Positions 21,132 through 60,627 of a DNA stretch of 64,000 nt are shown in pieces (the stretch's first letter is position 1; each line of letters begins with the position of its first letter). Under the pieces are notes generated by a model that saw only the letters and a list, made by a program, of their open reading frames with translations, was not told where the DNA came from and searched no databases. Both the position numbers and the translations under genes were made by a program. The stretch comes from Cupriavidus taiwanensis. Lineage in GTDB: Bacteria > Pseudomonadota > Gammaproteobacteria > Burkholderiales > Burkholderiaceae. The stretch is from the NCBI RefSeq assembly GCF_900249755.1, contig NZ_LT976853.1:3026756-3090755 (forward strand), written 5' to 3'.

Positions 21132-21140
21132 TGGGGGCGC

Positions 21141-22923: not shown

Positions 22924-22958
22924 CAACGGCCGCAGCGGAATCTCCGCTGCGGCCGTTG
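22924..22958 (-). terminator. Terminator-like hairpin after oxyR
   Basis: A perfect 16-bp stem (CAACGGCCGCAGCGGA and complement) with a three-base loop begins about 25 bases after the oxyR stop. The following minus-strand bases are TCATTTCC, a weak T-tract, so termination may be incomplete. Confidence 0.6.
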
Positions 22959-22984
22959 CATGAACCCGTCCTTCGGCGCGACGC

Positions 22985-23935
22985 TCAGGCGGCTTCGGCG
23001 AGTTCCTTGGCGTCGAGCTTGCGCACGCCGGGCAGGTCGCAGGCGGCCACGGCGTTGGCCAGCGCTTCCATCGCCGGCAGGCGCGTGAAGCTCTTGCGCC
23101 AGGCCAGCACCACGCGCCGGTCGGGCACCGGATCGGCAAAGGGCACGTACGACAGCATGTCGCCCTTGGCTTTCAGGTCGGGCACCGAGGTGCGCGGCAG
23201 CACGGTAATGCCGACGCCGCTGGCCACCATATGGCGGATGGTTTCGAGCGACGAGCCCTCGAAGGTCTTCTGGATGCCGTCGGCCGCCTGCGAGAAGCGC
23301 GACAGCTCCGGGCACACGCCCAGCACGTGGTCGCGGAAGCAATGGCCGCTGCCCAGCAGCAGCATGGTCTGCTGCTTCAGTTCCTCGGGATCGACCGCGT
23401 GCGCTTGCGCCAGCTGGTGGCCGCGCGGCACCGCCACGACAAAGGGTTCGTCATAGAGCGGGCGCACCGTCAGGCCGGAATCGGGGAACGGCTCGGCCAT
23501 CACCGCGCAATCGATCTCGCCCTGCTTGAGCAGCTCGATCAGCTTGTGGGTGTAGTTCTCCTGCAGCATCAGCGGCATCTGCGGCACGGTGTCGATCATC
23601 TGCTTGACCAGCGACGGCAGCAGGTACGGCCCGATGGTGTAGATCACGCCCACGCGCAGCGGCCCGGCCAGCGGGTCCTTGCCCTGCTTGGCGATCTCGC
23701 GGATCGCCATGGTCTGCTCCAGCACACGCTGGGCCTGCGCCACGATCTGCTCGCCGACCGACGTCACCGACACCTCGGAGGTGCCGCGTTCGAAGATCTG
23801 CACGTTGAGCTCGTCTTCCAGCTTCTTGATGGCGACCGACAGCGTCGGCTGCGACACAAAGCAGGCTTCGGCGGCCCGGCCGAAATGGCGCTCGCGCGCC
23901 ACGGCGACGATGTACTTGAGTTCGGTGAGCGTCAT
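22985..23935 (-). CDS. oxyR: Hydrogen peroxide-inducible regulator OxyR
   Basis: OxyR is a LysR-type activator switched on by disulfide formation. The 316-residue protein has the N-terminal helix-turn-helix (RHFGRAAEACFVSQPTLSVAIKKLE, about 17-41) and, decisively, the redox pair Cys199 (GSGHC) and Cys208 (LGVC), the same numbering as in E. coli OxyR. It is flanked by recG upstream and katA and dps downstream on the same strand, its likely targets. Confidence 0.97.
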   Translation of the reverse strand: MTLTELKYIVAVARERHFGRAAEACFVSQPTLSVAIKKLEDELNVQIFERGTSEVSVTSVGEQIVAQAQRVLEQTMAIREIAKQGKDPLAGPLRVGVIYTIGPYLLPSLVKQMIDTVPQMPLMLQENYTHKLIELLKQGEIDCAVMAEPFPDSGLTVRPLYDEPFVVAVPRGHQLAQAHAVDPEELKQQTMLLLGSGHCFRDHVLGVCPELSRFSQAADGIQKTFEGSSLETIRHMVASGVGITVLPRTSVPDLKAKGDMLSYVPFADPVPDRRVVLAWRKSFTRLPAMEALANAVAACDLPGVRKLDAKELAEAA

Positions 23936-24057
23936 GACTTATCAATTCCGGGTAGGCGATAGATTTTACCTTCGATTGCCGGATCTGTCAGAGTGCCCAC
24001 GCCACGCGAGCCGGTATGCGCCGGCTCCGGCACAAACCCCGGCTGACAGCCCTTCGT

Positions 24058-26250: not shown

Positions 26251-26479
26251 CGGCAAAAAAATTGGCAGCAGTCGCTGCGGGCTTCTGGACTGGCTGGCGC
26301 GGCGCCGGCGAATGGCCGGTATCACGCCCGGCCCGGCGGCAAGCGCGCGCGTGGCCTTACAATATCGGATTCGCCGATTGTACCCATGCCGGCTGCCAAC
26401 CCGGGCAGCGGAGTGACGCGCCGTGCCCGGCGCCGCCTCCGCCACAGCCTGCAGACCGCGCAGCCCGCCCCTTCCCACG

Positions 26480-28697
<2,218 letters not shown>

Positions 28698-28705
28698 CAA
28701 CCCCG

Positions 28706-28729
28706 GGCGGCGCGAACTTTCGCGCCGCC
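28706..28729 (+). other. Hairpin after tgt
   Basis: GGCGGCGCGA, a four-base loop and TCGCGCCGCC form a perfect 10-bp stem eight bases after the tgt stop. There is no T-run. It may mark an RNA end or processing point between queA-tgt and yajC-secDF. Confidence 0.5.
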
Positions 28730-28883
28730 GGCGGTCGAATAGCCGGTCAAGGCGCGGCGTCCGCCGCAAGTTGCCCCGAACGCACCCGAACAAACCCGTA
28801 TTCCGCCCTAGAATGCGAGGGACGGCTGGGCGCGAATGATAGAATGTTCGATTAATTGACTGACTTTGTGACGGAGAACCAAC

Positions 28884-29210
28884 GTGCTGATTTCTAACGC
28901 ATTTGCCCAGACCGCCAGTGCCGGCGGCGCGGCTGGCGGCCTGATGAGCTTCCTGCCCATCATCCTGATGTTTGGTGTGCTGTGGTTCATCATGATCCGC
29001 CCGCAGATGAAGCGCCAGAAGGAAGCCAAGGCAATGCTCGAAGCGCTGGCCAAGAACGACGAAGTCGTCACCGCCGGCGGCATCCTGGGCCGCGTGACCA
29101 AGGTCACCGACCAGTACGTCAGCCTGGAAATCGCCGAAGGCACCGAGATCACGGTGCAGAAGAATGCCGTGACCACGGTGCTGCCCAAGGGCTCGCTGAA
29201 GGCGCTCTGA
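28884..29210 (+). CDS. yajC: Sec translocon accessory protein YajC
   Basis: YajC is a small inner-membrane partner of the SecDF complex. The 108-residue protein has one transmembrane helix (FLPIILMFGVLWFIMIRPQMKRQKEAK, about 22-45) followed by a cytoplasmic beta domain (NDEVVTAGGILGRVTKVTDQYVSLEIAEG), which is the family pattern. It starts with GTG at 28884 behind a GGAG ribosome binding site. A TAGAAT -10-like box at 28840-28845 could drive it, but no good -35 is seen. Confidence 0.95.
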   Translation: MLISNAFAQTASAGGAAGGLMSFLPIILMFGVLWFIMIRPQMKRQKEAKAMLEALAKNDEVVTAGGILGRVTKVTDQYVSLEIAEGTEITVQKNAVTTVLPKGSLKAL

Positions 29211-29420
29211 TCCCCCGGATCGCGCGCGCGACTCCCGCCTTTGTCTTTTCCGGCATGCCCGTTCGCGCATGCCCCGGCAGCCGCCTGATCCAGCCCGACG
29301 AAGCCCCACCGGCTTCCATCCGCGGCTGCCAGGCGGCTGTTTGCCAAACCGGTTCGGCCCCGCCGACGTGGCGTGCCACGCCTGCGCCGGCCCCGCCAAC
29401 CGCTGAATGACTGGCCCGAG

Positions 29421-31292
29421 ATGAATCGTTATCCGCTTTGGAAATACCTCGTGATCCTGGTGGCCCTGGCCATCGGCATCATCTACACCTTGCCGAACTT
29501 CTTCGGCGAGGCGCCTGCCGTGCAGGTGTCCTCGGGCAAGGCCACGGTCAAGGTCGACCTGTCGATGCAGAAGCAGGTTGAAGAGATCCTGGCGCAGAAC
29601 CAGCTGCAGCCCGACGGCATCTTCTTCGATATTTCCGGCCAGTCGGGCTCGGTCAAGGCGCGCTTCCGCACCACCGACGAGCAGCTCAAGGCCAAGGACG
29701 TGCTGTCGCGCGCGCTCAACCCGGACGCGGCCGATCCCGCCTACGTGGTGGCGCTGAACCTGCTGTCGGGCTCGCCGCGCTGGCTGACCTCGCTGCACGC
29801 GCTGCCGATGTACCTGGGCCTGGACCTGCGCGGCGGCGTGCACTTCCTGCTGCAGGTCGACATGAAGGGCGCGGTCGACAAGAAGCTCGACAGCCTGGCC
29901 GGCGACGCGCGCACGCTGCTGCGCGACAAGAACATCCGCCACGGCGGCATCGACCGCGACGGCGAGCGCCTGACGGTGCGCTTCAACAACGCCGACGAAG
30001 CCGGCCGCGCCCGCGCGCTGCTGGCCGACAGCCTGCGCGAAGTGGCTTTCGCCCTGGACGGCAACAACCTCGTCGGCACCTTCACCGAGGCCGCGCGCCG
30101 CGCCGTGCAGGACGCCGCGGTCAAGCAGAACATCACCACCCTGCACAACCGCGTCAACGAGCTCGGCGTGGCCGAGCCGGTGATCCAGCAGCAAGGCGCC
30201 GACCGCATCGTGGTGCAGCTGCCGGGCGTGCAGGACACCGCCAAGGCCAAGGACATCATCGGCCGCACCGCCACGCTGGAAGCGCGCCTGGTCGACAACG
30301 ACGCGCCGCGCAGCCCGCGCCCGGGCGACCCGATCCCGTTCGGCAGCGAGCTGTTCACGCAAGGCAACGGCGCCCCGGTGGTGCTGAAGAAGCAGGTGAT
30401 CTTCACCGGCGACCGCATCGAGAGCGCCTCGGCCGGCTTCGACCAGAACCAGCAGCCTTCGGTCAACATCAAGCTCGACGCCCAGGGCGGCCGCGTGCTG
30501 CGCGATGTCTCGCGCGAGAACCTGAAGAAGCCGATGGCGATCGTGCTGTTCGAGAAGGGCAAGGGCGAAGTGCTGACGGTGGCGACGATCCAGTCCGAAC
30601 TGGGCTCGAGCTTCCAGATCACCGGCTCCTACTCCACCGAGGCCGCCAACGACCTGGCCCTGCTGCTGCGCGCCGGCTCGCTGGCCGCGCCGATGGAGAT
30701 CATCGAAGAGCGCACCATCGGCCCGTCGCTGGGCGCCGACAACATCGAGAAGGGCTTTGATTCGGTGGCCTATGGCTTTGCCGCCATCGGCGTGTTCATG
30801 ATCCTGTACTACATGCTGTTCGGGGTGTTCTCGGTGGTCGCGCTGGGCGTGAACCTGCTGCTGCTGATCGCGGTGCTGTCGATGCTGCAGGCCACGCTGA
30901 CGCTGCCGGGCATCGCCGCCATCGCGCTGGTGCTGGGCATGGCCATCGACGCCAACGTGCTGATCAACGAGCGCATCCGCGAGGAACTGCGCGCCGGCGC
31001 GTCGCCGCAGATGGCGATCGCGGTCGGTTTCGACCGCGCCTGGGCCACCATCCTGGACTCCAACGTGACCACGCTGATCGCCGGCCTGGCGCTGCTGGCG
31101 TTCGGCTCGGGCCCGGTGCGCGGCTTTGCCGTGGTGCACTGCCTGGGCATCCTGACCTCGATGTTCTCGGCGGTGTTCTTCAACCGCGGCCTGGTCAACC
31201 TCTGGTACGGCCGCAAGAAGAAGCTGCAGAGCGTGGCCATCGGCCAGATCTGGAAGCCCGGCAATACCACCGACACGCCGGTCGCCAAGTAA
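29421..31292 (+). CDS. secD: Protein translocase subunit SecD
   Basis: SecD uses the proton gradient to pull exported proteins across the inner membrane with SecF. The 623-residue protein has the first membrane helix at about 5-27, the large periplasmic P1 head, the conserved LDLRGGVHFLLQVD segment, and a C-terminal bundle of about five helices with AIALVLGMAIDANVLINERIREE. The start at 29421 is chosen because the family begins MNRYPLWKY-like directly before the first helix. secF follows after 41 bases. Confidence 0.97.
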   Translation: MNRYPLWKYLVILVALAIGIIYTLPNFFGEAPAVQVSSGKATVKVDLSMQKQVEEILAQNQLQPDGIFFDISGQSGSVKARFRTTDEQLKAKDVLSRALNPDAADPAYVVALNLLSGSPRWLTSLHALPMYLGLDLRGGVHFLLQVDMKGAVDKKLDSLAGDARTLLRDKNIRHGGIDRDGERLTVRFNNADEAGRARALLADSLREVAFALDGNNLVGTFTEAARRAVQDAAVKQNITTLHNRVNELGVAEPVIQQQGADRIVVQLPGVQDTAKAKDIIGRTATLEARLVDNDAPRSPRPGDPIPFGSELFTQGNGAPVVLKKQVIFTGDRIESASAGFDQNQQPSVNIKLDAQGGRVLRDVSRENLKKPMAIVLFEKGKGEVLTVATIQSELGSSFQITGSYSTEAANDLALLLRAGSLAAPMEIIEERTIGPSLGADNIEKGFDSVAYGFAAIGVFMILYYMLFGVFSVVALGVNLLLLIAVLSMLQATLTLPGIAAIALVLGMAIDANVLINERIREELRAGASPQMAIAVGFDRAWATILDSNVTTLIAGLALLAFGSGPVRGFAVVHCLGILTSMFSAVFFNRGLVNLWYGRKKKLQSVAIGQIWKPGNTTDTPVAK

Positions 31293-31333
31293 GCGGCCCG
31301 CGGCACAACACGTAGTACAGAACAGGATTCAAC

Positions 31334-32305
31334 ATGGAATTCTTCCGCATCCGGCGCGACATTCCGTTCATGAAGCACGCGTTGATCTTCAACGTGATCT
31401 CCTTCCTGACGTTTGCCGCCGCCGTGTTCTTCCTCTGGCAAAAGGGCCTGCACCTGTCGATCGAATTCACCGGCGGCACGGTGATGGAGGTCAGCTACCA
31501 GCAGGCGGCCGACCTGGAAAAGATCCGCGGCCAGGTGGGCAAGCTGGGCTACACCGACGTGCAGGTGCAGAACTTCGGCACCTCGCGCGACGTGATGATC
31601 CGCCTGCCGCTGCAGAAGGGCCCGGACGGCAAGCCCGCCACCTCCGCCCAGCAGAGCGAGCAGGTGATGGGCGCGCTCACCGCGGCGTCGCCTGACGTCA
31701 AGCTGCAGCGCGTCGAGTTCGTCGGCCCGCAGGTGGGCAAGGAGCTGGCCACCGACGGCCTGCTGGCGCTGCTGTGCGTGGTGGCGGGTATCGTGATCTA
31801 CCTGTCGTTCCGCTTCGAGTGGAAGTTCGCGGTGGCGGGCATCATCGCCAACCTGCACGACATTGTCATCATCCTGGGCTTCTTCGCCTTCTTCCAGTGG
31901 GAGTTCTCGCTGTCGGTGCTGGCGGCGATCCTGGCGGTGCTGGGCTACTCGGTGAACGAATCGGTGGTGATCTTCGACCGGATCCGCGAGGCCTTCCGCA
32001 AGTACCGCAAGATGACCACGCACGAGGTCATCGACCACGCCATCACCAGCACGATGTCGCGGACCATCATCACCCACGGCTCGACCGAGATGATGGTGCT
32101 GTCGATGTTCTTCTTCGGCGGCCCGACGCTGCATTACTTCGCGCTGGCGCTGACGGTGGGCATCCTGTTCGGCATCTACTCGTCGGTGTTCGTTGCCGCG
32201 GCGCTGGCGATGTGGCTGGGCGTGAAGCGCGAGGACCTGGTCAAGGGCGAGAAGAAAGGCGACTCGACCGACCGCAACGACCCCAACTACGGCGCGCAGG
32301 CCTGA
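31334..32305 (+). CDS. secF: Protein translocase subunit SecF
   Basis: SecF is the partner of SecD. The 323-residue protein has an N-terminal membrane helix (NVISFLTFAAAVFFLW), the periplasmic domain with LSIEFTGGTVMEV, and a C-terminal bundle with VLAAILAVLGYSVNESVVIFDRIRE, the SecF form of the proton-channel motif, and STMSRTIITHGSTE. The length is usual for SecF. It ends the queA-tgt-yajC-secD-secF run and is followed by a strong terminator. Confidence 0.97.
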   Translation: MEFFRIRRDIPFMKHALIFNVISFLTFAAAVFFLWQKGLHLSIEFTGGTVMEVSYQQAADLEKIRGQVGKLGYTDVQVQNFGTSRDVMIRLPLQKGPDGKPATSAQQSEQVMGALTAASPDVKLQRVEFVGPQVGKELATDGLLALLCVVAGIVIYLSFRFEWKFAVAGIIANLHDIVIILGFFAFFQWEFSLSVLAAILAVLGYSVNESVVIFDRIREAFRKYRKMTTHEVIDHAITSTMSRTIITHGSTEMMVLSMFFFGGPTLHYFALALTVGILFGIYSSVFVAAALAMWLGVKREDLVKGEKKGDSTDRNDPNYGAQA

Positions 32306-32328
32306 GCCCTGCCCGCCCGGAAAACAGA

Positions 32329-32354
32329 ACGGCGCCCCGCGGGGCGCCGTTTTT
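32329..32354 (+). terminator. Terminator of secF (possibly bidirectional)
   Basis: ACGGCGCCCC, GC loop, GGGGCGCCGT, then TTTTTC. It starts 24 bases after the secF stop and lies only 22 bases beyond the end of the convergent phcQ gene, whose transcript would meet the same stem. Confidence 0.85.
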
Positions 32355-32375
32355 CATGGCAGCGGCCTGGGAAAC

Positions 32376-33383
32376 TCAGGCCGGCATCGAGAAGCGCTCG
32401 ATCCACGCGGCCAGGCGGTCGGAGGCGAAGGTCTCGCTGCGCGGGGCGGCGCGGCAGACGATGGTGTCGCCGTCGCGGACGAACTTCAGCGCGCCGCCTG
32501 CCTCCTCCAGCCAAAGCAGGCTGGCCAGCCAGGCGGCATGATGCATCGATACCGCCGTGCCCACGGGCTGGGCTAGGAACTCGGCCAGCGCGGCCGGCTG
32601 GGTCCAAACCACCGCATCGCCGTCGCGGCGCACCACTTCGCTGCCGAGCGCGTCGGCGATCACCGCCGCGGCATCGGCCGCGCTCTTGCCGGCATGGCTG
32701 CCGCGCAGTTGCGCCAGGCGCGTGCCCACGGCATGGCCGAAGCTGCCGCTGCGCTCGGCTTCGGCGCGCACCAGGTCGGCGTAATCCATGCGCTGCCAGT
32801 CCGGATCGACGCTGCCAGCGCCGGCCAGGTCCACCGCGGCGAGGTAGGTCTCCACCGGCTGGAAGCGGCCCGGGCCGATCAGGCTGGCGCACAGTGCATG
32901 CACCATGCCAATGCGTGAAGCCACGGTCTGGGTCTGCAGCACCGACAGCTTCTCGCGCACCAGCTGGTCGCGCTCCTTGCGCAGCCCCGCCAGTTCCAGC
33001 GCCTGCTTGAGTTCCATGCGCAGCGCGGTGATGTCCCACGGCTTCTTGATATAGCGGTGGATCTGCCCCTGGTTCACCGCCTCGACGGTCTGGTCGAGTT
33101 CCGAGTACGCGGTGGTCAGGATGCGCACGATGTGCGGGTAGCGTTCGCGCGCGTAGCGCAGCAGTTCGTTGCCATACTCGCCCGGCATGCGCTGGTCCGA
33201 CACCAGTACCGCGAGGCTGTCGGCATGGGCGTCCAGCAAGGCCTTGCCCTCCTCGACGGAGCCGCCGGTGACCACCGGTGCCAGCGCGCCGATGGCGCGC
33301 TGGAAATATTTAACTGCCGTGGCCTCGTCATCGACGAACAGAATCGCCGGGGGTGGTGCCTGGGTGGCATTCGGTTCGGTCAT
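32376..33383 (-). CDS. phcQ: Response regulator PhcQ
   Basis: In Ralstonia, PhcQ is the response regulator that carries the Phc quorum signal towards PhcA. This 335-residue protein has an N-terminal receiver with acidic pair Asp18-Asp19, phosphoacceptor Asp63 (VSDQRMPG) and Lys113/114 (IKKPW). A coiled linker follows at about 118-150, then a C-terminal region of about 180 residues without a recognised output domain. Its ATG overlaps the phcR stop by one base (TAATG), showing tight coupling. The name rests on operon position and general likeness to the Ralstonia system. Confidence 0.82.
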   Translation of the reverse strand: MTEPNATQAPPPAILFVDDEATAVKYFQRAIGALAPVVTGGSVEEGKALLDAHADSLAVLVSDQRMPGEYGNELLRYARERYPHIVRILTTAYSELDQTVEAVNQGQIHRYIKKPWDITALRMELKQALELAGLRKERDQLVREKLSVLQTQTVASRIGMVHALCASLIGPGRFQPVETYLAAVDLAGAGSVDPDWQRMDYADLVRAEAERSGSFGHAVGTRLAQLRGSHAGKSAADAAAVIADALGSEVVRRDGDAVVWTQPAALAEFLAQPVGTAVSMHHAAWLASLLWLEEAGGALKFVRDGDTIVCRAAPRSETFASDRLAAWIERFSMPA

Positions 33384-34513
33384 TACTCACTCCTGTGCGT
33401 TCGACTCTTGAAACTTGGAAAGTCCAGCGTCACCGTGGTGCCGGCGCCGGATGCGGACTCGATCCGGATCCCGCCGCCAAAGGACTGCATGACGCGGTTG
33501 CAGAAAATCATGCCCAGGCCGCTGCCGCCGGCACTGGCGTGGGTGGTGACGGGATCGACCAGCAGCCGGTCCATCACTTCGGGCGGAATGCCGGGGCCGT
33601 TGTCGCAGATGCGGATCTCGGCACGCGGCTGCGCAGCCACCACAAAGCGCAGCGACGGCGCACCGACATCGGCCAGCGCCCGCAGCGCATTGCTCATCAC
33701 CGACGACAGCACCAGTGCCACGCAGTTGGGCAGGGTCTGCACGGGAAAGTCTCCCTGCAGGTCTACCTCGACCCAGCTGCGCTGGTCGCCCACGAAGGGA
33801 TAGCTGTCCAGCAGCGCGGACACCAGGGCCCCAGCCCGAACCTCGGTGCCGGCGGCGCGCCCGGCGGGCGCGTTGCCGGCGCTGTCGCGCACCGACTGCA
33901 GGAACGACGACAGCACCGCCAGGCAATACTGGGCGTTGTCGTGCATCGCGCTGGCGGCCTGGCCGATTTCGCTCTGGCGCTGGGCACTGTACTCGCCCGC
34001 CACGCGTCCGCTGATGCCGCGCGCAAAATTGGCGATGGCAGCCAGCGGCGTATTGAGTTCGTGCGCCAGGAAGGCCAGGGTCTCGTCGATCGCCATCAGC
34101 CGGTGCTGGCGCAGCGTGCGTTCGCGATGGCGCTCGGCGGCGCGGGCCAGCACGTCGCGCAGGTTGCTCACGCTCAGCGGCTTTTCCAGGATCTGGAAGA
34201 TCTCGCCGCTGTTGACGGTCTGCAGCAGCACGTCCTTGTCGGCATAGGCCGTGACCAGGATGCGCACCACGTGCGGATAAGCCTGCGCCACCTGCCGCAG
34301 CAGCACGCCGCCATCGCGCCCGGGCATGCGGAAGTCGGTCACCAGTATGGCCACGCGGGCGGGATCGGAGCGCAGCACCGACATGGCTTCGTCGGCGCTG
34401 CCGGCCAGCAGCACCTCATAGTCGGCGCCGACCGCGCGGGCGAAGTACTTGCGCGCCATGTCTTCGTCGTCGACGTAGAGGATGGCGGGCCGCGCCTGCA
34501 GGACTTCGCTCAT
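33383..34513 (-). CDS. phcR: Response regulator-histidine kinase hybrid PhcR
   Basis: PhcR of the Ralstonia Phc system is unusual in placing a receiver before a kinase domain, and this 376-residue protein has that order. The receiver has Asp60 (VTDFRMPG) and Lys111 (LEKPL). The HisKA helix has the phospho-histidine His151 in AHELNTPLAAI, and the ATPase domain contains ICDNGPGIPPEV and GSGLGM. There is no membrane segment, so it is cytosolic. It lies 6 bases after phcS and overlaps phcQ. Confidence 0.88.
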   Translation of the reverse strand: MSEVLQARPAILYVDDEDMARKYFARAVGADYEVLLAGSADEAMSVLRSDPARVAILVTDFRMPGRDGGVLLRQVAQAYPHVVRILVTAYADKDVLLQTVNSGEIFQILEKPLSVSNLRDVLARAAERHRERTLRQHRLMAIDETLAFLAHELNTPLAAIANFARGISGRVAGEYSAQRQSEIGQAASAMHDNAQYCLAVLSSFLQSVRDSAGNAPAGRAAGTEVRAGALVSALLDSYPFVGDQRSWVEVDLQGDFPVQTLPNCVALVLSSVMSNALRALADVGAPSLRFVVAAQPRAEIRICDNGPGIPPEVMDRLLVDPVTTHASAGGSGLGMIFCNRVMQSFGGGIRIESASGAGTTVTLDFPSFKSRTHRSE

Positions 34514-34519
34514 GGCTGG

Positions 34520-35857
34520 TTACTCCGCACGCGGCAGGTCGAAGCTGAAGGCGGTCCACTGGCCGAACTCGCTTTCGGCAAACAATTGGCCCCCGTGGCG
34601 CTCGATCACCGCGTAGCTGATCGACAGGCCCAGGCCAAGGCCCTGCCCCACCTCGCGCGTGGTGAAGAACGGCTCGAACACGCGCGCCAGGTTTTCCTGC
34701 GGGATGCCGGGGCCGTTGTCGCGCACGGTTACGTGCAGGCGATGGTTGTCCCAGCGGGCCGTGGTGTGGATTGCGGGTGCCGCCGTACCGGCCTTGCGCA
34801 TGGCCAGCGCGGCGTTCGAGAACAGGTTGATCAGCACGCCGATGATGGCCGCCTCGTCGCCGAGCACCAGCGTGTCGGGCACCAGCTCGCGCGTCAGGGT
34901 GACGCCGCGCAATTCATGCGCGGTCAGGCGGATCGATGAATCCAGCGCCTTTTCGAACAGGAACGGCGTGCCTTCGACCTCGGCGCCAGGCTTGCGGTAG
35001 GCGAAAGTCTTCAGGTCGGAAACGATATGCTGGATGCGCTGCATGCCCTGCTTGGCATCGAGCAGGCATTCCTCCAGCGGCGGGCTCGCCTTGGCCTGCG
35101 GCTCTTCCATCGCCACTTCGATTGCCATCAGGCAGAAGTTGACGGGGTTGTTGACCTCATGCAGCAGGCCCGCGGCCAGCGTGCCGATCGCGGCCATCTT
35201 TTCCTGCTGCAGCATCTGGCCCTTGATGTCGGCCAGCCGCCGGTTGATGTCGGCGAGCTCTTCGTTCTTGCGCGCCAGTTCTTCCTTCAGCCGGATCAGG
35301 TGGAAATGCCCGCGCTCGTTCATGAAGGTGTAGACCGCGCTGGCCACGATCGAAAACAGGATGAACAGCGAATTGACGATGAAGTGCGCACGCTGCGCCA
35401 GGCCGTCGGGGTGGATCAGGCAGGCGGCCAGGTACATCAGGTACGTCACCACGCCGAAGCCGATGGTCTGCCACAACCCCATCGGCATGGCGATGCCGAC
35501 TGCGAAGATGACGAGGTTCAATCCGGCATAGTAGATCGACGACGCCCCGTCGGTGGTGGCGATCATCCATGCGATCATCATCTGCGGCAGCAGCAGCCAG
35601 GCCAGCGTCAGCGGCTGCACGTAGTGCCTGCCGGCCTGGTTGACCAGCAGCAGCAGGATCAGGCCAATCAGGGCCGAGACCAACAGGCGCACGACAAAGA
35701 ACTGCAGCTGGTGATCGGGATAGATGCCGTAGTCGAGCCCGACCCCCGCCAGCACCAGCACGATGGCAGTCAGCGCGCCCGCCCGGCTCGATACCAGGCG
35801 GAACTCGCGCAGGTCGGCCTCGTACGGGGAATACCTGCTCGCGGTCCGTTTCAGCAT
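34520..35857 (-). CDS. phcS: Membrane sensor histidine kinase PhcS
   Basis: PhcS is the sensor of the 3-hydroxy fatty acid methyl ester signal in Ralstonia. The 445-residue protein has about six transmembrane helices (roughly 26-42, 52-74, 84-101, 108-126, 131-148, 159-179), a coiled linker, the phospho-acceptor His233 in LLHEVNNPVNF, and the ATPase boxes TVRDNGPGIPQE and GQGLGLGLSI. It has no separate periplasmic sensing domain, so a lipid-like ligand is probably sensed within the membrane bundle. The stop of phcB is 4 bases upstream of its start. Confidence 0.88.
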   Translation of the reverse strand: MLKRTASRYSPYEADLREFRLVSSRAGALTAIVLVLAGVGLDYGIYPDHQLQFFVVRLLVSALIGLILLLLVNQAGRHYVQPLTLAWLLLPQMMIAWMIATTDGASSIYYAGLNLVIFAVGIAMPMGLWQTIGFGVVTYLMYLAACLIHPDGLAQRAHFIVNSLFILFSIVASAVYTFMNERGHFHLIRLKEELARKNEELADINRRLADIKGQMLQQEKMAAIGTLAAGLLHEVNNPVNFCLMAIEVAMEEPQAKASPPLEECLLDAKQGMQRIQHIVSDLKTFAYRKPGAEVEGTPFLFEKALDSSIRLTAHELRGVTLTRELVPDTLVLGDEAAIIGVLINLFSNAALAMRKAGTAAPAIHTTARWDNHRLHVTVRDNGPGIPQENLARVFEPFFTTREVGQGLGLGLSISYAVIERHGGQLFAESEFGQWTAFSFDLPRAE

Positions 35858-35861
35858 GGCG

Positions 35862-37265
35862 TCAGGCCTTGGCCGGATCGGTCACTACCGCTTCCACGAA
35901 CACGTTGACGCCGGTCGGGTCGGCATAGGTGCGGCTGTCGCGCGTGTTGGACGGCAGCAGCGACGCCATGCCAGCCTCGTCGCGATAGATCAGGTACCAC
36001 TCCAGCATATGTTCCATGCTGTACCGTTCCGGGTTGTTGACGTGGACGTTGGTAGCCAGGATGCGCCCCTCGGGGTGGGTGCGCGTGGAGAAATAACTGA
36101 GCAGGCGCGCACAGACCCGGTCGGACAGGTAGTCGAACAGGCCGGCGCAATAGACGCCGTCGAACTCGCGCAGCGACGGGTCCGGGTCGATGCGGCGCTT
36201 GAGCAGTTCATGCACCGAGTGGTGGACATACTCCACCTCGATCCTCGCATTGGCCTTGCGGCAACTCTCGTTGATGCGGTCGCGGGCGTAATCCAGGGTT
36301 TCCTGGCTGAAGTCGAGCAGCTGGAACGAGAGCCAGTGGGGCTCGGGGTATTCGGTAATGAAGCGGTTGATTTCGACGGCGGGACCGCAGCCCACGTTCA
36401 GCAGCCGGAACGGCTTGCCCGCGGCGCGCGCCTGCTCGGCCATGCGCACCAGAAAATCCACCAGCAAGTCGATGCGGTTGCGATGCGCTGCGGCCACCGA
36501 CGACTGCAGGAAGGTCGCATTGACGATCTGGAAGTAGGTGCTGGGCCCCTGGCGCGGATCCGACAGGATCTGGTTGACCATCTCATAGTCGCCGGCATAG
36601 CCCAGCGGCTTGGTGTAGGTCCGGAACACGAACGGGGAGCGCAGCAGCAGCGGATGCAGCGCCGCCTGGGTGAAGGTGCGGTGCATCACGGTGTCTTCTT
36701 CCGGCACATGCGCCGCCTCGCCGTCGAGCCGCGCGGAATATTCTCGGATCTTCAGCGCGATCGGAGTCGCCAGCTCCTCGAACACGTCCATGCGCAGGGT
36801 CTCGCCCTCCTTGGGCAGCGTGCTGGTCATGTCGACCTGCTCTACCCAGCGCGATACTTCGGACAGGAACGCGCGCATCTCGTTGACGACGATCTGGTAG
36901 TCGCGGCGGATATTGAAGCGCTTCTCCCAGTCCTGCACGAACTGCAGCGACTCGCGCGCTACCGACTTGGGCTCGTCGTCGAGGTTGCTCAGCTCCAGCC
37001 ATTCGTCGATCAGCGTCAGCGACACCACCGCGGTCAGGCCGGTGTTCACCAGGCTCATCACCACCGCCTTGCCGAGATACGCGTTCTTCGTGCCCATGCG
37101 GACACTGAGTTCGCTCAGCACCTCGCTGACCTGCACGATCGAATACGGGTTGTAGATCTCCATCACCAGAGACTTTCTCTGGAGATTGACAATGGTGCCC
37201 CGCACCTGCTCGCCCTGCGAGTTGCGGAAACTAACTACCGGATCGATTTGCGTTTTGGAGTACAC
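35862..37265 (-). CDS. phcB: SAM-dependent methyltransferase PhcB (quorum signal synthase)
   Basis: PhcB of Ralstonia makes 3-hydroxypalmitate or 3-hydroxymyristate methyl ester by methylating the fatty acid. The 467-residue protein has a class I methyltransferase domain in its second half, with SAM motif I LLNVGCGPAVE at 288-298 and an acidic loop ending the second strand (FQLLDFSQETL). The N-terminal part (RGTIVNLQRKSLVMEIYNP, about 22-40) looks like a small beta-barrel, perhaps PilZ-like. It begins with GTG at 37265 and heads the phcBSRQ operon. Which acyl chain it uses cannot be read from sequence. Confidence 0.9.
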   Translation of the reverse strand: MYSKTQIDPVVSFRNSQGEQVRGTIVNLQRKSLVMEIYNPYSIVQVSEVLSELSVRMGTKNAYLGKAVVMSLVNTGLTAVVSLTLIDEWLELSNLDDEPKSVARESLQFVQDWEKRFNIRRDYQIVVNEMRAFLSEVSRWVEQVDMTSTLPKEGETLRMDVFEELATPIALKIREYSARLDGEAAHVPEEDTVMHRTFTQAALHPLLLRSPFVFRTYTKPLGYAGDYEMVNQILSDPRQGPSTYFQIVNATFLQSSVAAAHRNRIDLLVDFLVRMAEQARAAGKPFRLLNVGCGPAVEINRFITEYPEPHWLSFQLLDFSQETLDYARDRINESCRKANARIEVEYVHHSVHELLKRRIDPDPSLREFDGVYCAGLFDYLSDRVCARLLSYFSTRTHPEGRILATNVHVNNPERYSMEHMLEWYLIYRDEAGMASLLPSNTRDSRTYADPTGVNVFVEAVVTDPAKA

Positions 37266-37610
37266 GGTATAGCGCCAGGGAAAACCGGGAAACGCTGCGG
37301 GCCATACAGCCAGGGCAGAACGGCCGGGTACAGCATGAGGGCGAGGGGGTCGCGGGAATGGCTACCGGTGTCGGGACATGCAGCGAATGCTCATAGTGAT
37401 GCGCTTTAGCCGGTTGCGGGCATCGGTGCCCCCGCCGTGGCGGAGTCGCAATGCCCCGGATCATGGTGGATTGCCGCGGGTCATTGTACTGTGCCCGTCG
37501 CAACTCGCACAACAAAGTGCCGTGGCAGCCCCCCGCATGGTGCAATACAACAAAAAAGGCCGGCATTGGCCGGCCTTGGCAGCAGCTTGCCCGCCCAGCG
37601 GGCCGCGCGC
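37266..37610. other. phcB upstream region
   Basis: This 345-base gap separates phcB from the YceI gene, both on the minus strand. It holds the YceI terminator at 37551-37577 and, on the minus strand, a possible sigma-70 promoter TTGTGC, 18 bases, TACAAT (37483-37512), which would give phcB a leader of about 210 bases. The -35 is weak. No other repeat is seen. Confidence 0.4.
37551..37577 (-). terminator. Terminator of the cybB-yceI-yceI operon
   Basis: On the minus strand AAGGCCGGC, a four-base loop and GCCGGCCTT are followed by TTTTG. It starts 34 bases after the stop of the distal YceI gene. Confidence 0.85.
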
Positions 37611-38201
37611 TCAGTCGGCGCGCACGCCTTCCACCTGGATGGCCAGCTTGACCTCGGGCTTGAAGCCCATCTTGACGCCATAGTCCAGGCCGAAATCGGC
37701 CCGGTTGAACTGGCCCACGGCGTCGGCGCCGCAGGCTTCGCGCTTGAGCATCGGGTGCTGGATGCACTTGAATTCGCGGATTTCCAGCTTGACCGGCTTG
37801 GACACGCCGCGCATCGTCAGCACGCCGTCGACCTCGGTCGGCACGTCGCCCTTGAACTTGGAGAACTTGCCCTTGTAGGTGGCCTCGGGGAAGGCTTCGA
37901 CGTCGAACATGTCCGGGCCCTTGGCGTGCTGGTTGAGCTTGGCATTGCCGAAATCGATCGAAGCCGGGTCGATCTTGACCTCGACCGAGCCCGCCTTGGC
38001 GGCCCGGTCCAGCGTCACCACGCCGCTGGACTTGTCGAACTTGCCGCGCCAGGTCGACAGGCCGCCCAGGTGGTCGGCCTCGAAGCTGGGGTAGGTGTGG
38101 GTCGGATCGAGGTTGTACGTCACGGTGTTGGCCGAAGCCACGCCGAAGGCGGCGGTTGCGGAAACGGCCGCGACGGCGGCAACGAGGGAACGCAGTTTCA
38201 T
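37611..38201 (-). CDS. YceI family periplasmic protein (distal copy)
   Basis: YceI proteins are periplasmic lipocalin-like barrels that bind polyisoprenoid lipids. The 196-residue protein has a Sec signal peptide ([24 protein letters not shown]) and the mature start [19 protein letters not shown], then the typical [26 protein letters not shown] and [15 protein letters not shown] segments. The ATG at 38201 has a GGGAGA ribosome binding site; a further ATG at 38216 would lengthen the signal peptide. It is the last gene of a cytochrome b561-YceI-YceI run. Confidence 0.93.
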
Positions 38202-38275
38202 GGTGTCTCCCGACAAGTCAGGGTTGGGATGGAGCGGTTCAGGTAAGTCCTGGGTACGTCAGCGGAATGCCGGCC

Positions 38276-38857
38276 TTACTTCCTGGCCAGCACGATACGG
38301 AATTTGATCTGGACGTCGTCGGCGACCACGGAGGTGTCCTTCCATTCGCCGTCGCCGATATTGAACGCGGTGCGCTTGATCGGCAGCGCGCCCTCGAACA
38401 CCTGCGCGGCGCCCTCCTGGCGGTAGGTGGCGGGCACCACCACGTCGACGGTCTTGCCCTTGATGGTCAGCTTGCCGGCGACGTCGTACTTGCCCGGCGT
38501 GCCGTTCTTGATGCTGGTCGACTGGAATACCGCCTTGGGGTATCTGGCGGCGTCGAACCAGTCCTTGCCCTTCACTTCCTTGGTGGTCTCGGCATCGCCG
38601 ATCTCGAAGCTGGCCACGTCGATCTCGATCTTGGCCGACGACGTTGCCAGCTTGGCGGGGTCGAAGCTGACGTTGGCGTCGAACTTCCTGAACTTGCCTT
38701 CCATCGGCACGCCGATCTGGCGCGCCACCGCGGTCACCGAACTTTTGGCGGCGTCGACCTGGGCCCAGGCCAGGTTGGCGGCGATGCCGGTGGCGGCCAG
38801 CACGGCGGCCAGGGTGGCGCGGATAGGGGCCGAGCCGCGGCGGGAATTGCGTTTCAT
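38276..38857 (-). CDS. YceI family periplasmic protein (proximal copy)
   Basis: A 193-residue YceI protein with a twin-basic N-terminus and a signal peptide ending near AWA-Q, followed by VDAAKSSVTAVARQIGVPMEGKFRKFDANVSFD and the GKLTIKGKTVDVVVPATY segment. It differs clearly from the second YceI just downstream, so the two are old paralogues with possibly different ligands. Cytochrome b561 is encoded 65 bases upstream, a frequent pairing that suggests lipid quinone-related function. Confidence 0.93.
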   Translation of the reverse strand: MKRNSRRGSAPIRATLAAVLAATGIAANLAWAQVDAAKSSVTAVARQIGVPMEGKFRKFDANVSFDPAKLATSSAKIEIDVASFEIGDAETTKEVKGKDWFDAARYPKAVFQSTSIKNGTPGKYDVAGKLTIKGKTVDVVVPATYRQEGAAQVFEGALPIKRTAFNIGDGEWKDTSVVADDVQIKFRIVLARK

Positions 38858-38922
38858 CTGAGAAAACTCCTGTCAGGGACGGCGCAGCGGCGCCGCGGAA
38901 CGAAAAGCTTGGCGCGCCAGGC

Positions 38923-39477
38923 TCAGCGCAAAAACGGCAGCATCCGGCCCAGCGTGCCGTCACGGTCGACGAACTGGTGTTTCACCGCCGCCGCCGCATG
39001 GACAACGACCACGGCCGCCATCAGGTAGTTCAGCCAGATATGGGTGAACTTCAGCACTTCCTTCAGCGCATCGCTTTTCTCGATCAGCGCCGGCATCTTC
39101 CACAAACCCAGGTAGACCACCGGCACGCCCGCGGCCGAGCTGTACAGGTAGCCGCTGATGGGAACGATCACGATCAGCAGGTACAGCAGATGGTGGGCGC
39201 CGGCCGCGGCCCGCGCCTGCCACGCCGGGGTGCCCGGTGCGACCGGCGGCGCGGCGTGGGTGGCGCGCCACAGCACGCGCAGCACGGCGACGGCGAAGAT
39301 CGTCACGCCCAGCCACTTGTGCCAGGAGTAGAGCTTGAGCTTGGTCGGCGTCAGCCCCGGGATGCCGGTCATGTACAGGCCCAGCCCGAACGCGGCGAAT
39401 ATGGCCAGCGCCACCAGCCAGTGCAGGGCGATCGCGGTGGCACCGTAGCCGGCGGGAACGGGGGCGGTAGAACGCAT
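38923..39477 (-). CDS. Cytochrome b561 family protein
   Basis: A 184-residue inner-membrane dihaem cytochrome with four hydrophobic helices and conserved haem histidines, for example in AIALHWLVAL (first helix), YSWHKWLGV (second), AGAHHLLYL (third) and THIWLNYLMAAVVVVHAAAA (fourth). Members such as CybB pass electrons between quinol and acceptors such as superoxide. It leads the operon with two YceI genes. Confidence 0.93.
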   Translation of the reverse strand: MRSTAPVPAGYGATAIALHWLVALAIFAAFGLGLYMTGIPGLTPTKLKLYSWHKWLGVTIFAVAVLRVLWRATHAAPPVAPGTPAWQARAAAGAHHLLYLLIVIVPISGYLYSSAAGVPVVYLGLWKMPALIEKSDALKEVLKFTHIWLNYLMAAVVVVHAAAAVKHQFVDRDGTLGRMLPFLR

Positions 39478-39684
39478 CGGATTCCTCTCGCCCGCGGCAC
39501 GGGCGTTTCACAATTTTGGGGAAGGCACCGGCCGGAACCACCCGCCCGTGCGCTGACGATTCTCGCATTATTGCGGCCCGATGTGCGCCGGTGCAGGACA
39601 GTCCTTCATTAAGTTATTCAAATGCTTTGAAGCGACATTCTGGCGCAGGCGTCACAAAGACGGAGGTGGGAGCGTCGGAAAACA

Positions 39685-39710
39685 AAAAGCCATCCCGAGG
39701 GATGGCTTTT
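39685..39710 (-). terminator. Terminator downstream of purB
   Basis: AAAAGCCATCCC, GA loop, GGGATGGCTTTT: a perfect 12-bp stem with A and T tails, so it can work on both strands. It lies about 100 bases after the purB stop. Confidence 0.85.
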
Positions 39711-39716
39711 GCTGAT

Positions 39717-39787
39717 CGTCGTCCCCGCGAAGGGCGGTGATGTAGTGCCGCTAAAGACACTTGATCGCCCCTTTCGCAGGGATGACG
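39717..39787. repeat. Imperfect inverted repeat, CGTCRTCCCYGCGAA type
   Basis: The left arm CGTCGTCCCCGCGAAGGGCG (39717-39736) matches the complement of 39766-39787 with a few mismatches, around a loop of 29 bases. The arms resemble a widespread proteobacterial intergenic repeat (CGTCATCCCCGCGAA). It sits between the purB stop and its terminator. Confidence 0.6.
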
Positions 39788-39809
39788 GTTTAGTTTTCTG
39801 GAATTCCGC

Positions 39810-42166
<2,357 letters not shown>

Positions 42167-47892: not shown

Positions 47893-48939
47893 ATGACCTT
47901 CAATCCGCACGACAGGAATCTGTCGGTCTTCCATCACCCGGTCCTGACTGTCCTTGTGGATGACAGCAAGTCTTTCATCGACAGCCTGGCGTTCCAGATG
48001 GATGCCGCGCGCGGGGTGATCACCTTCACCGACCCGCGCGAAGCGCTGCAGTGGATCCGCGAAGCCTATGCCACCCGCTTCCCGGGCTTCCTGCCGGTGC
48101 GCGTCACGCACGACGACCTGACCTTCCTGACCGAGCGGCGCACGGTACAGCTGGACATCGACCGCATCTACCGCCAGATCCACGACGTCAACCGCTTCCT
48201 GCAGCCGGGCGTGATCGTGGTCGACTATTCGATGCCGCAGATGGACGGCCTGGAATTCTGCCAGGCGCTGCAGGACCTGCCGTGCAAGACCATCCTGCTG
48301 ACCGGCACCGCCGACGAGAGCATTGCCGTGCAGGGCTTCAACCACGGGCTGATCGACCGCTACGTGAAGAAGCACGACAGCAATATGGTGGAGCGGCTCG
48401 ACCAGGAAATCGAAGCCATGCAGCAGGCGTACTTCGCCACGCTGTCGCGCACGCTGCGCGAGCTGCTGACGCGGCATTCGTTCTCGTTCCTGTCCGATCC
48501 GGCCATGACCGAGCGCGTGCGCCAGCTGACCACGCGCTACGGCTTTGTCGAGTACTACCTGTACCCCAACCCGGCCGGCATCCTGCTGCTGACCGCGCAG
48601 GGCCACGCCACGCTGATGGTGATCGAGACCCGCGCCGGACTGATGACGCAGGTGGAGTCCGCCGAAGCCTACGACGCCCCGGCCGCGCTGATCGAGGGCC
48701 TGCGCGAAGGCCGGCTGGTGCCCTACTTCTGGCCCGGCAACGGCATGTACACGCCGGCCTGCGTCGATTGGGAACAATACTGCCTGCCGGCCGAGCGCTG
48801 CGAAGGCAGGGAAGAGTTCTTCTACGCGCTGTTCGACCTGCCGCGCCACATGCTGCAGGAGCCGGTGGTCAGCCTGCAGAGCTTCCTGGCGGATTTCAGC
48901 CGCAATCCGGACGCGCTGACGGGGCGCAAGCGCCCCTGA
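47893..48939 (+). CDS. Response regulator with expanded receiver domain, LqsR-like
   Basis: A 348-residue protein with receiver-domain landmarks in unusual spacing: acidic pair Asp23-Asp24 (LVDDSKSF), phosphoacceptor Asp111 (VVDYSMPQMDGLEF), Thr139 region (LLTGTADES) and Lys159/160 (YVKKHD). The acidic pair and phosphoacceptor are 87 residues apart instead of about 44, so some 43 extra residues (about 58-103) are inserted. The C-terminal half (about 175-348) has no recognised DNA-binding or enzyme motif. Legionella LqsR, a quorum-sensing regulator, is of similar length with its acceptor Asp near 108, so it may be a relative. No kinase gene adjoins it. Confidence 0.75.
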   Translation: MTFNPHDRNLSVFHHPVLTVLVDDSKSFIDSLAFQMDAARGVITFTDPREALQWIREAYATRFPGFLPVRVTHDDLTFLTERRTVQLDIDRIYRQIHDVNRFLQPGVIVVDYSMPQMDGLEFCQALQDLPCKTILLTGTADESIAVQGFNHGLIDRYVKKHDSNMVERLDQEIEAMQQAYFATLSRTLRELLTRHSFSFLSDPAMTERVRQLTTRYGFVEYYLYPNPAGILLLTAQGHATLMVIETRAGLMTQVESAEAYDAPAALIEGLREGRLVPYFWPGNGMYTPACVDWEQYCLPAERCEGREEFFYALFDLPRHMLQEPVVSLQSFLADFSRNPDALTGRKRP

Positions 48940-59110: not shown

Positions 59111-59542
59111 ATGCCGAGTCCGGCGGACCTCAAGAATATCGGCCTGAAGGCGACGGTGCCCAGGCTGAAGATTCTTGAAATTTTTCAGACCAGCGAGCAG
59201 CGTCACCTGAGCGCGGAAGACGTCTACCGTATCCTGCTCAACGAGCATATGGATATCGGCCTGGCCACCGTCTACCGCGTGCTGACCCAGTTCGAACAGG
59301 CCGGCCTGCTGTCGCGCAACAACTTCGAGTCCGGCAAGGCCATCTTCGAACTCAACGAAGGCAAGCACCACGACCACCTGGTGTGCCTGGACTGCGGCCG
59401 GGTCGAGGAATTCTTTGATTCCGAGATCGAGCAGCGCCAGCAAAGCATCGCGCGCGAGCGCGGCTTCACCCTGCAGGAACACGCGTTGTCGCTGTATGGC
59501 AACTGCACCAAGACCAACTGTCCCCACAGACCCAAACGATAA
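59111..59542 (+). CDS. fur: Ferric uptake regulator Fur
   Basis: Fur represses iron-uptake genes when loaded with ferrous iron. The 143-residue protein has the DNA-binding helix ([33 protein letters not shown], about 35-70) and the metal-binding [18 protein letters not shown], with a C-terminal CTKTNCPH cysteine pair. It is divergent from bamE across 245 bases, which must hold both promoters; no clear Fur box was found there. Confidence 0.97.
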
Positions 59543-59631: not shown

Positions 59632-60627
59632 TCAGCGTGCCTGCAGGTCCTGCAGGTCCTGCTCGGTCACCGCGCGTGCCGGGCGCGCCGGCGGCAGGCC
59701 GACGAACTCGCCCACCACCTGGCGGAACAGGCCGCGCGCCCACACCAGCATCGGGTGGGTGTTGCGGCTGCGGTGCCAGAACATGTTCAGGCCCAGCGTG
59801 GTATTCAGTTCCGCCGGCAGCGGGAACGCCTTCAGGCCATAGGTTTCGCAGGCCATGTCCTTGGTCAGCGCATTGACGGTGAAGATCATGTCCGTCTGCG
59901 AGGCCAGCTCGGCCTGGGCCCGCCACGAATGTACCGTCAGCGAGGCATTGCGCTTCAGGCCGCGCTGCTGCAGCGCGTAGTCGAGCGGGATCAGTGAAGG
60001 TGCCGGGCGGCCCGAGCCGCCGGAATGCGCCATGAAGATATGGCCGCAGTCCAGGTACTGCTCGAGCGTGCAGTGGCCCTTCAGTACCGGATGATCCTTG
60101 CGCGCGCACACCCACAGGTTCAGCGAGGTCACCATTTCCTCGACGATTTCCGGATGGCGGGTCGGGAATGGCGAGAATGCCAGGTCGAGTTCATTGGCGC
60201 GCATCGACGCGACATCGGTTTCCCACGAATGGGATTCGACCAGCTTGATATGCAGGTCCGGCGCCAGCGCCTTGATGCGCAGCACGAAACGGTTGAACAC
60301 CGTGTCGCCCAACTCCGCGGCAAAGCCGATGCTGAGCGTGCCGGTGGCGGTGGCCGGATCGAAGTTGTCTGCGTCGCCTTCGTTGATGGACGACCACAGA
60401 TCCAGCATGTCGCGGATCTTCGGCCCCAGTTCGAGCGCGCGCGGCGTCGGCGTCAGCCCGTGCGGGACGCGGATAAAGAGTGGATCGTCAAAGATTTCGC
60501 GCAGCCTGCCCAGCGAATGCGAGACCGCGGGCGCGGTCATGTGCATCTTTTCGGCCACGTAGGTGGCATTACGCTTGCTCAGCAGCTCGGTGAAGATCAC
60601 TAAAAGCTTTGTGTCTACGTTCACCAT
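59632..60627 (-). CDS. phcA: LysR-family global virulence regulator PhcA
   Basis: In Ralstonia, PhcA is the density-dependent LysR regulator that turns on exopolysaccharide and turns off motility and siderophore genes. The 331-residue protein begins MVNVDTKLLVIF, has a helix-turn-helix at about 20-42 (ATYVAEKMHMTAPAVSHSLG), and ends in a conserved-looking QDLQDLQAR. I know this N-terminus and the neighbouring gapA and transketolase genes as features of the Ralstonia phcA locus. The ATG at 60627 has a GGGGG ribosome binding site; a GTG nine codons upstream is an alternative. Confidence 0.85.
   Translation of the reverse strand: MVNVDTKLLVIFTELLSKRNATYVAEKMHMTAPAVSHSLGRLREIFDDPLFIRVPHGLTPTPRALELGPKIRDMLDLWSSINEGDADNFDPATATGTLSIGFAAELGDTVFNRFVLRIKALAPDLHIKLVESHSWETDVASMRANELDLAFSPFPTRHPEIVEEMVTSLNLWVCARKDHPVLKGHCTLEQYLDCGHIFMAHSGGSGRPAPSLIPLDYALQQRGLKRNASLTVHSWRAQAELASQTDMIFTVNALTKDMACETYGLKAFPLPAELNTTLGLNMFWHRSRNTHPMLVWARGLFRQVVGEFVGLPPARPARAVTEQDLQDLQAR

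Follow-up and report, generated by a model that had tools for sequence, protein, structure and literature searches.

A probable exchangeable synthase-sensor cassette in the phcBSRQ quorum-sensing operon of Cupriavidus taiwanensis

A divergent block within the phcBSRQ operon

The genes phcB, phcS, phcR and phcQ of Cupriavidus taiwanensis lie in a stretch of 64,000 nucleotides (C1:3026756-3090755, hereafter the window) of a genome of 5.95 Mb. They encode the Phc quorum-sensing system, of which PhcB is described in Ralstonia as making 3-hydroxypalmitic acid methyl ester (3-OH PAME) or 3-hydroxymyristic acid methyl ester (3-OH MAME), and PhcS as sensing the signal. The phcBSRQ operon is ordinary for the genus Cupriavidus and is a known system rather than a new one. 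The question raised by the locus is why one block of it shares just 58-70% protein identity with relatives that are 99% identical in the flanking genes, and 87-98% identity with five other Cupriavidus genomes. Our comparisons make it quite probable that the operon carries a swappable synthase-sensor cassette, each type of which would be a matched pair for its own signal variant (a pherotype). The genes and regions compared are as follows.

phcB, 35862..37265, minus strand: 467 amino acids (aa), GTG start; S-adenosylmethionine-dependent methyltransferase, proposed signal synthase.
phcS, 34520..35857, minus strand: 445 aa membrane sensor histidine kinase; sensor about residues 1-205, kinase 206-445, phospho-histidine H233.
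phcR, 33383..34513, minus strand: 376 aa; receiver (D60) followed by a histidine kinase (H151).
phcQ, 32376..33383, minus strand: 335 aa; receiver (D63) and a conserved C-terminal part (about 118-335) with no Pfam match.
Putative exchangeable specificity cassette, 35230..36950, minus strand: phcB from about codon 105 to its end and phcS codons 1 to about 210, delimited by sliding windows, per-gene identities and trees.
secF, 31334..32305, plus strand: convergent flanking gene, control for the cassette.
YceI-like gene, 37611..38216, minus strand: upstream of phcB, flanking control.

PhcB of the window has a single match in its own genome and is 98% identical to its counterpart in genome G138, 97% to that of C. 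lacunae, 96% to that of C. necator UYPR2.512 and 90% to that of C. yeoncheonensis. Its identity to PhcB of C. neocaledonicus, C. alkaliphilus and others is about 74%, and these two named species are 99-100% identical to the window in SecF and 93% in PhcQ. Comparison with genome G131 places the divergence along the DNA (500-base windows). Most of the flanks are 94-99% identical, with 89-90% in one intergenic stretch; identity is 87% at position 37000, 69-77% at 36750-35500, 79-88% over the rest of phcS and phcR, 87-91% in phcQ and 95-99% in secF/secD. The corresponding protein identities are 99% for YceI, 70% for the C-terminal half of PhcB, 58% for the PhcS sensor, 90% for the PhcS kinase, 93% for PhcQ and 99% for SecF.

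The same profile recurs in other pairs of genomes with unlike blocks. The pair G179/G162 is 98% identical in YceI, 71% in the C-terminal half of PhcB, 58% in the PhcS sensor, 99% in the PhcS kinase, 98% in both PhcR halves, 99% in PhcQ and 95% in SecF. The fall from 99% in the kinase to 58% in the sensor indicates that the replacement would therefore stop inside phcS. G190/G069 (PhcS kinase 99%, PhcR 98%, PhcQ 96%) and G195/G189 (PhcS kinase 96%, PhcR halves 92-96%, PhcQ 90%) behave in a similar way, and the genes past the PhcS sensor are 90-99% identical in three of six unlike Cupriavidus pairs, with the sensor there at 53-60%.

Sliding windows of 200 bases were used to locate the borders in six unlike pairs (five of Cupriavidus and one of g24, a Ralstonia-like genus). 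Identity drops within phcB at about 37150-36850 in all six, near 36950 (about codon 105) in four of them, and climbs within phcS at about 35350-35200, again in all six, at about codon 210, which is the border between sensor and kinase. The limits of the cassette are good to about 150 bases, and the phcB limit differs between pairs. The two clusters of g24 (5 and 11 genomes) differ at the same place as the Cupriavidus types: between them PhcX is 95% identical, the N-terminal part of PhcB 87%, the C-terminal half of PhcB 62%, the PhcS sensor 48%, the PhcS kinase 94% and PhcQ 91%.

Types of the cassette and their distribution

Among the 60 Cupriavidus genomes, four were dropped for an incomplete phcB or phcS-sensor region, and the 56 kept carry four types of cassette: I (46 genomes), II (6), IIb (2) and III (2). 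The window belongs to type II, a minority allele (6/56) found also in G138, G161, C. lacunae (G157), C. necator UYPR2.512 (G179) and C. yeoncheonensis (G195). Type I relatives are 57-62% identical to the window in the PhcS sensor and 86-95% in the PhcS kinase half. Clustering of the 51 genomes with all eight genes at a distance of 0.2 gave identical type II, IIb and III groups from the PhcS sensor and from PhcB; the remaining genomes are type I, from which the sensor at this cut splits two more genomes. Synthase and sensor half thus co-vary as discrete types against conserved flanks.

These types are incongruent with the species tree, for which five flanking genes served as an approximation. 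From these genes a quick maximum-likelihood tree was made for 59 of the 60 genomes, one being dropped for too few flank genes. On this tree type II takes 6 changes in 6 genomes (mean after shuffling, 5.9) and is scattered as at random, and on the tree of phcB plus PhcS sensor each type forms one clade. In approximately unbiased (AU) tests the flank data are incompatible with a single type II clade (p 0.003), and the cassette data with the sister pairs G179/G162 (p 6e-66) and G195/G189 (p 2e-45), pairs that were chosen after the flank tree was seen. The type II label takes one change in each PhcB half and in the PhcS sensor, three each in the PhcS kinase, the PhcR halves and PhcQ, five in YceI and six in SecF, so that the label decays away from the core. 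At leuS, 20 kb off, the closest genomes are likewise a mixture of types I and II.

Within a type, the cassette distance tracks the flank distance (type I: rho 0.74, 990 pairs, 0/2000 permutations as high; type II: rho 0.94, 15 pairs, 11/2000 permutations). Between types I and II the cassette distance stays at 0.24-0.29 while the flanks span 0.02-0.15; a rank correlation of 0.7 remains inside this narrow band of cassette distances. Tracking within types together with this flat distance between them means that the types therefore look old and kept across species, with exchange mostly among relatives.

Origin and meaning of the types

We propose that a block of about 1.7 kb, made up of the last three quarters of phcB, which are catalytic, together with the sensor-coding half of phcS, is replaced as a unit by recombination, which would pass through the conserved N-terminus of PhcB on one side and through the PhcS kinase half or genes further on at the other, leaving the downstream pathway in place. 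Exchange of the cassette is well supported by the identity profiles and trees, and that the types may be different chemical dialects is a well-founded inference. In the agr locus of Staphylococcus aureus and the comQXP locus of Bacillus, the polymorphic block likewise covers the signal synthesis gene along with the kinase's sensor half; the kinase and the regulator are conserved. Those systems use peptide signals and proteins unrelated to Phc, whereas the signal here is presumed to be a fatty acid methyl ester. On balance we lean towards the view that the cassette is an ancient trans-species polymorphism exchanged between species and genera, which would make it a lipid counterpart of agr and ComQXP.

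A related pattern has been described for the Ralstonia solanacearum complex, where, in the account of PMC8578825, PhcB and PhcS form two groups that correspond to the signal (3-OH MAME vs 3-OH PAME) and are independent of phylotype, and PhcR, PhcQ and PhcA follow the phylotype. According to PMC6580516, phcB and phcS bear strong marks of balancing selection, and agr is cited there as an analogue. The pattern in Cupriavidus extends this known Ralstonia theme by more types (four, against two PhcB/PhcS clusters in g24), by their trans-species occurrence and by boundaries resolved to domains. In the open-access literature we found no description of the cassette in Cupriavidus, or of phc operons without phcA. 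A study of 2018 reports that phcBQRS show an excess of diversity along the C. taiwanensis branch and that phcB and phcS are positively selected (PMC5995829); cassette exchange, rather than adaptation to symbiosis, may partly explain that diversity.

Several observations weigh against so simple a picture. Divergence in the window lineage extends, more weakly, through phcR and phcQ (79-91% DNA identity to G131), and the block exchanged in this lineage would therefore be larger than the cassette. In window/G131 and in G153/G181 identity past the sensor recovers only partly, so the exchanged block may be larger or older there. The boundaries are not identical, with the drop about 100-150 bases earlier in G190/G069 and G153/G181, and in G195/G189 the sequence upstream of phcB (37550-37400) is also just 63-66% identical. 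PhcB residues 1-95 are type-linked as well (1 change). The grouping depends on the cut: at 0.3, PhcB merges types I, II and IIb, and the sensor merges II and IIb. Single clades on the cassette tree arise by construction, the types having been defined from the cassette, and the weight lies on the disagreement with the flanks; the flank tree in turn is a quick tree of five genes from one region that may itself recombine. The proposed difference in signal between types is deduced from two things: the divergence is confined to synthase and sensor, and published work on the R. solanacearum complex connects the PhcB/PhcS groups with the kind of signal. Lastly, part of the pattern could also arise if selection drove rapid divergence with no exchange, but that alone does not explain 99% identity on one side within the same gene.

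Three other explanations have to be weighed against the swappable matched pair. It is possible, though in our view unlikely, that what sets the types apart is regulation, or escape from eavesdropping or quenching, and not the structure of the signal, under selection by hosts or by competitors able to degrade or imitate the ester. Reports that phcB and phcS are selected in plant-related settings (PMC6580516, PMC5995829 and PMC6989110) would fit such an escape, but a linked change of synthase-methyltransferase and sensor is most simply explained by matched signal specificity, and the groups of the R. solanacearum complex track 3-OH MAME vs 3-OH PAME (PMC8578825).

It is likewise doubtful that the cassette or most of the operon was gained once or a few times from outside the genus with no lasting polymorphism. 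The types do cross genera, as in a joint protein tree (61 rows hand-picked from 115) type I stands with one Paraburkholderia operon set and type III inside another, and a phc operon is present on a conjugative Paraburkholderia plasmid. However, no outside donor for type II was found in this 61-row tree, in which types II and IIb are joined by nothing but the whole Ralstonia-like clade (g24), with weak support (90) and long branches; moreover, the order of the six genomes with type II is one that the flank tree allows, which suggests long retention.

Plain vertical descent of phcBSRQ, with the types as ordinary divergence of a fast-evolving PhcB and PhcS sensor, agrees with the presence of phcS in all 60 Cupriavidus genomes (E 1e-80; partial or in pieces in G107, G183 and G194), with the conserved place of the operon in the named loci and with the tracking of flank distances within a type, but it is strongly disfavoured and very improbable, since the PhcS sensors of the flank sisters G179/G162 (98% in YceI, 99% in PhcQ) are 42% different, against just 8-13% between more distant species that share a type, and the AU tests reject congruence.

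Organisation of the operon and its proteins

An initial annotation had described 32376-37265 as a complete phcBSRQ operon of four packed minus-strand genes, and all four open reading frames are present as described. Direct reading of the junctions gave the same gaps of 4 and 6 bases and the same one-base TAATG overlap, and the order B-S-R-Q stands in a single tight operon for which co-transcription is predicted. The operon and secF are convergent, and upstream of phcB are YceI-like genes and purB; these names are our presumption from the sequence and, for secF, also from its place. Between phcQ and secF a GC-rich inverted repeat followed by T-rich sequence was seen by eye. A search of positions 30000-40000 against Rfam at the gathering threshold matched no family.

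The identification as Phc also holds, as gene order, domains and neighbours fit and the nearest relatives are phc operons. The order and proteins are the same as in the R. solanacearum complex, and PhcQ is 53-55% identical to the copies of g24. The phcBSRQ and phcA genes of C. metallidurans CH34 and C. necator JMP134, of the same genus and with the same four-gene operon, were reported in 2010 (PMC2864759, PMC2842291); as far as these accounts of phc go, they describe no alternative phcB-phcS types, whereas the window belongs to type II, a minority form. In a named scan, made with PhcQ and limited to the best 80 of 363 loci, each of the 38 Cupriavidus loci has the four genes in the order B-S-R-Q, with a full PhcR; two of the 38 (L078 and L086) are labelled otherwise, PhcS is partial in L090 and PhcQ is cut by a contig end in L109. 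One of these, L078, titled Ralstonia sp. 25mfcol4.1, looks Cupriavidus-like in its phc and flanking genes, which is likely a naming matter. In the family, full-length PhcQ is found in 32 of 150 genomes, and PhcB likewise in 32.

Domain searches agree with the reading of the products as a methyltransferase, a membrane kinase, a receiver-kinase hybrid and a receiver protein. PhcB matches Methyltransf_25 (E 2.5e-5) at 25.3 bits, slightly below the curated 27 of Pfam, and Methyltransf_12, likewise below its cut-off, and contains the motif LNVGCGP at residue 289. A Pfam search of its residues 1-104 at E 0.1 gave no match, and a PilZ-like look of this part was noted by eye only. PhcS contains HisKA (E 3.5e-8) and HATPase_c (E 9.2e-23) domains and the motif LLHEVNNPV at 231. 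A hydropathy scan found six hydrophobic stretches in residues 19-182, two of them overlapping, and a seventh (325-356) within the kinase half that was taken as non-membrane, which fits a sensor of six helices that has no extra domain. PhcR contains Response_reg, HisKA and HATPase_c and no DNA-binding domain, whereas Response_reg is the sole Pfam domain of PhcQ, encoded by the last gene of the operon. The absence of an extra sensing domain from PhcS and of an output domain from PhcR, pointed out initially, is borne out by domain search and hydropathy, and is the normal Phc design according to PMC8578825. The catalytic and phospho-acceptor motifs of the window proteins are intact, including the phospho-sites H233 of PhcS, D60 and H151 of PhcR and D63 of PhcQ, counted from the motif starts. 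The layout of PhcR, a receiver followed by a histidine kinase, is also that of LvrB of Leptospira, whose solved structure (8vc9) covers query residues 24-368. To our knowledge, LvrB is not part of a quorum-sensing operon.

PhcA and the signalling route

Three further genes of the window bear on the output of the system.

phcA candidate, 59632..60627, minus strand: LysR regulator of 331 aa, adjoining fur; Pfam HTH_1 and LysR_substrate.
fur, 59111..59542, plus strand: neighbour of phcA, as in the Cupriavidus and Ralstonia genomes described in PMC2864759.
phcX, lqsR-family response regulator, 47893..48939, plus strand: 348 aa.

The phcA candidate stands 22 kb from the phc operon. A phcA-like LysR gene was found at E 1e-60 in 28 of 150 family genomes, namely all 14 of the own genus, all 13 of g24 and G004, and the candidate is 75-77% identical to the g24 copies in 11 of the 13 genomes and 66-71% in the other two. 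We regard 59632-60627 as a candidate PhcA-like LysR gene by its LysR domains, its place beside fur and comparison with g24, which is itself probably Ralstonia because 16 of 16 g24 loci carry a PhcX homologue at most 7 kb from phcS, phcX being near the phc genes in Ralstonia (PMC10653808). In the report on C. metallidurans, phcA is beside fur, as it is in R. solanacearum, and about 25 genes from the phc operon (PMC2864759). Two phcA matches are split or contain stop codons (G123:C3:135092-136080 and G113:C21:137752-138462), and phcA there may be broken or mis-sequenced.

The closest relative of PhcX in the PDB is LqsR (6sy9, E 4.2e-48). In the window its gene lies about 10 kb from phcB, against at most 7 kb from phcS in g24, and falls within a longer open frame that also covers the upstream gene. 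A PhcX-like gene (48% identity) adjoins phcB divergently in L113 and L114 (Candidatus Nitrotoga) and in L116 (a Burkholderiales metagenome bin).

The initial annotation had left the route from PhcR and PhcQ to PhcA as an open question. Work on R. pseudosolanacearum, in which PhcQ is reported to bind PhcA and to stabilise it (PMC13320629), means that it is no longer wholly open. PhcQ is described as the main and PhcR as a partial contributor (PMC8578825), PhcS H230, equivalent by motif to H233 here, as autophosphorylated (PMC11960443), and ChpA is a further regulator named in the Ralstonia Phc work. By analogy, carried over via the conserved residues, PhcB would methylate a 3-hydroxy fatty acid and the ester would build up with cell density; the membrane half of PhcS would sense it and H233 become phosphorylated. 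The phosphate would then move to the receiver of PhcQ (main branch) and to that of PhcR (minor branch), and PhcQ would act on PhcA, whose gene is 22 kb away, probably through binding that stabilises it. In one paper PhcR and PhcA reportedly act oppositely on ralsolamycin. Production of a 3-hydroxy fatty acid methyl ester by the window operon is likely; according to PMC2864759, C. metallidurans CH34 did not yield 3-OH PAME.

An R154C change in PhcQ altered quorum sensing in an evolution experiment (PMC6989110). Alignment with length-matched g24 copies suggests that this residue corresponds to R157 of the window PhcQ, which is invariant in 22 of 22 PhcQ sequences and sits, in the predicted model, in a long helix joining the receiver to the C-terminal part. 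This C-terminal part (32376-32966) matches no Pfam model and has 17 invariant residues in 61 sequences. The full-length model has a mean predicted local distance difference test score (pLDDT) of 85.5, and the C-terminal part folded alone has a pLDDT of 91.6 and a predicted template modelling score of 0.89. The 50 best structural matches to the full-length model are receivers or proteins matched mainly through the receiver. The C-terminal fold gave no match in the PDB at E 0.001 or better; its best Z, 4.8, is a weak match to a designed protein, which does not show a new fold. An idea by eye that the C-terminal part is a degenerate kinase copied from PhcR found no support in profile-profile comparison with the PhcR and PhcS kinases (probability 0.1%; positive control PhcR vs PhcS, 99%), for which the alignments held the window plus 113 of 158 PhcQ, 85 of 158 PhcR and 113 of 159 PhcS sequences after duplicates and odd lengths were dropped.

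Phc operons without PhcA outside Cupriavidus

Each of the 42 non-Cupriavidus loci in the named scan has PhcB, PhcS and PhcQ. A PhcA orthologue was found in none of the 39 non-Cupriavidus genomes searched through these loci (32 Paraburkholderia-like and 7 others, of unstated completeness and several of them metagenome bins), where the best LysR has 29-33% identity, the level of the second-best LysR in Cupriavidus; the three Cupriavidus controls all gave PhcA at 97-100%. The search covered the genomes of 42 of 45 loci, all but L074, L103 and L105. Among the 32 phcB-bearing genomes of the family, four (G020, G065, G104 and G044) gave no PhcA match at E 1e-60. The statement in PMC5995829 that the phc system is found intact solely in Cupriavidus and Ralstonia fits this lack of PhcA elsewhere.

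PhcR is also reduced in many of these operons. Among 35 Paraburkholderia-like loci it is full in 10, a receiver or a receiver with a remnant in 24, and absent in 1, the first operon of L069. It is also absent in L117 (Massilia sp. Root418), and L026 (G044), where phcS and phcQ are about 85 bases apart, gave no match to PhcR above 150 bits. The locus L069 (P. translucens) has two diverged phc operons (6920-11002 and 16279-21001) on opposite strands about 5 kb apart, one of them without PhcR. The plasmid pPHS1_P of P. graminis (L240), typed as conjugative, carries at 15998-33383 phcB, phcS, a gene for a 134-residue receiver and phcQ, followed by pel exopolysaccharide genes. A general phc-pel link was considered and rejected, as none of the 80 named loci matched the PelA-F, CFA-synthase or chloride-channel proteins of the plasmid (E 1e-15, 70 bits, 10 kb flanks), with one PelF match at the laxer 1e-5.

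Significance

What is worth attention here is the polymorphic signal cassette and the operons without PhcA, rather than the operon as such. Such a cassette would account for the grouping of PhcB and PhcS across species lines, which PhcR, PhcQ and PhcA do not share, and it predicts which Cupriavidus strains can hear each other. Sister pairs such as G179/G162 (PhcQ 99%, PhcS sensor 58%) make specificity testable against a near-identical pathway. The operons without PhcA, mostly also without the PhcR kinase, show that a PhcB-PhcS-PhcQ core can persist without the classical output, so that the target of PhcQ becomes testable outside plant pathogens. If our interpretation is true, Cupriavidus, Paraburkholderia and Ralstonia would use several mutually distinct dialects of 3-hydroxy fatty acid methyl ester side by side, all feeding one common downstream pathway.

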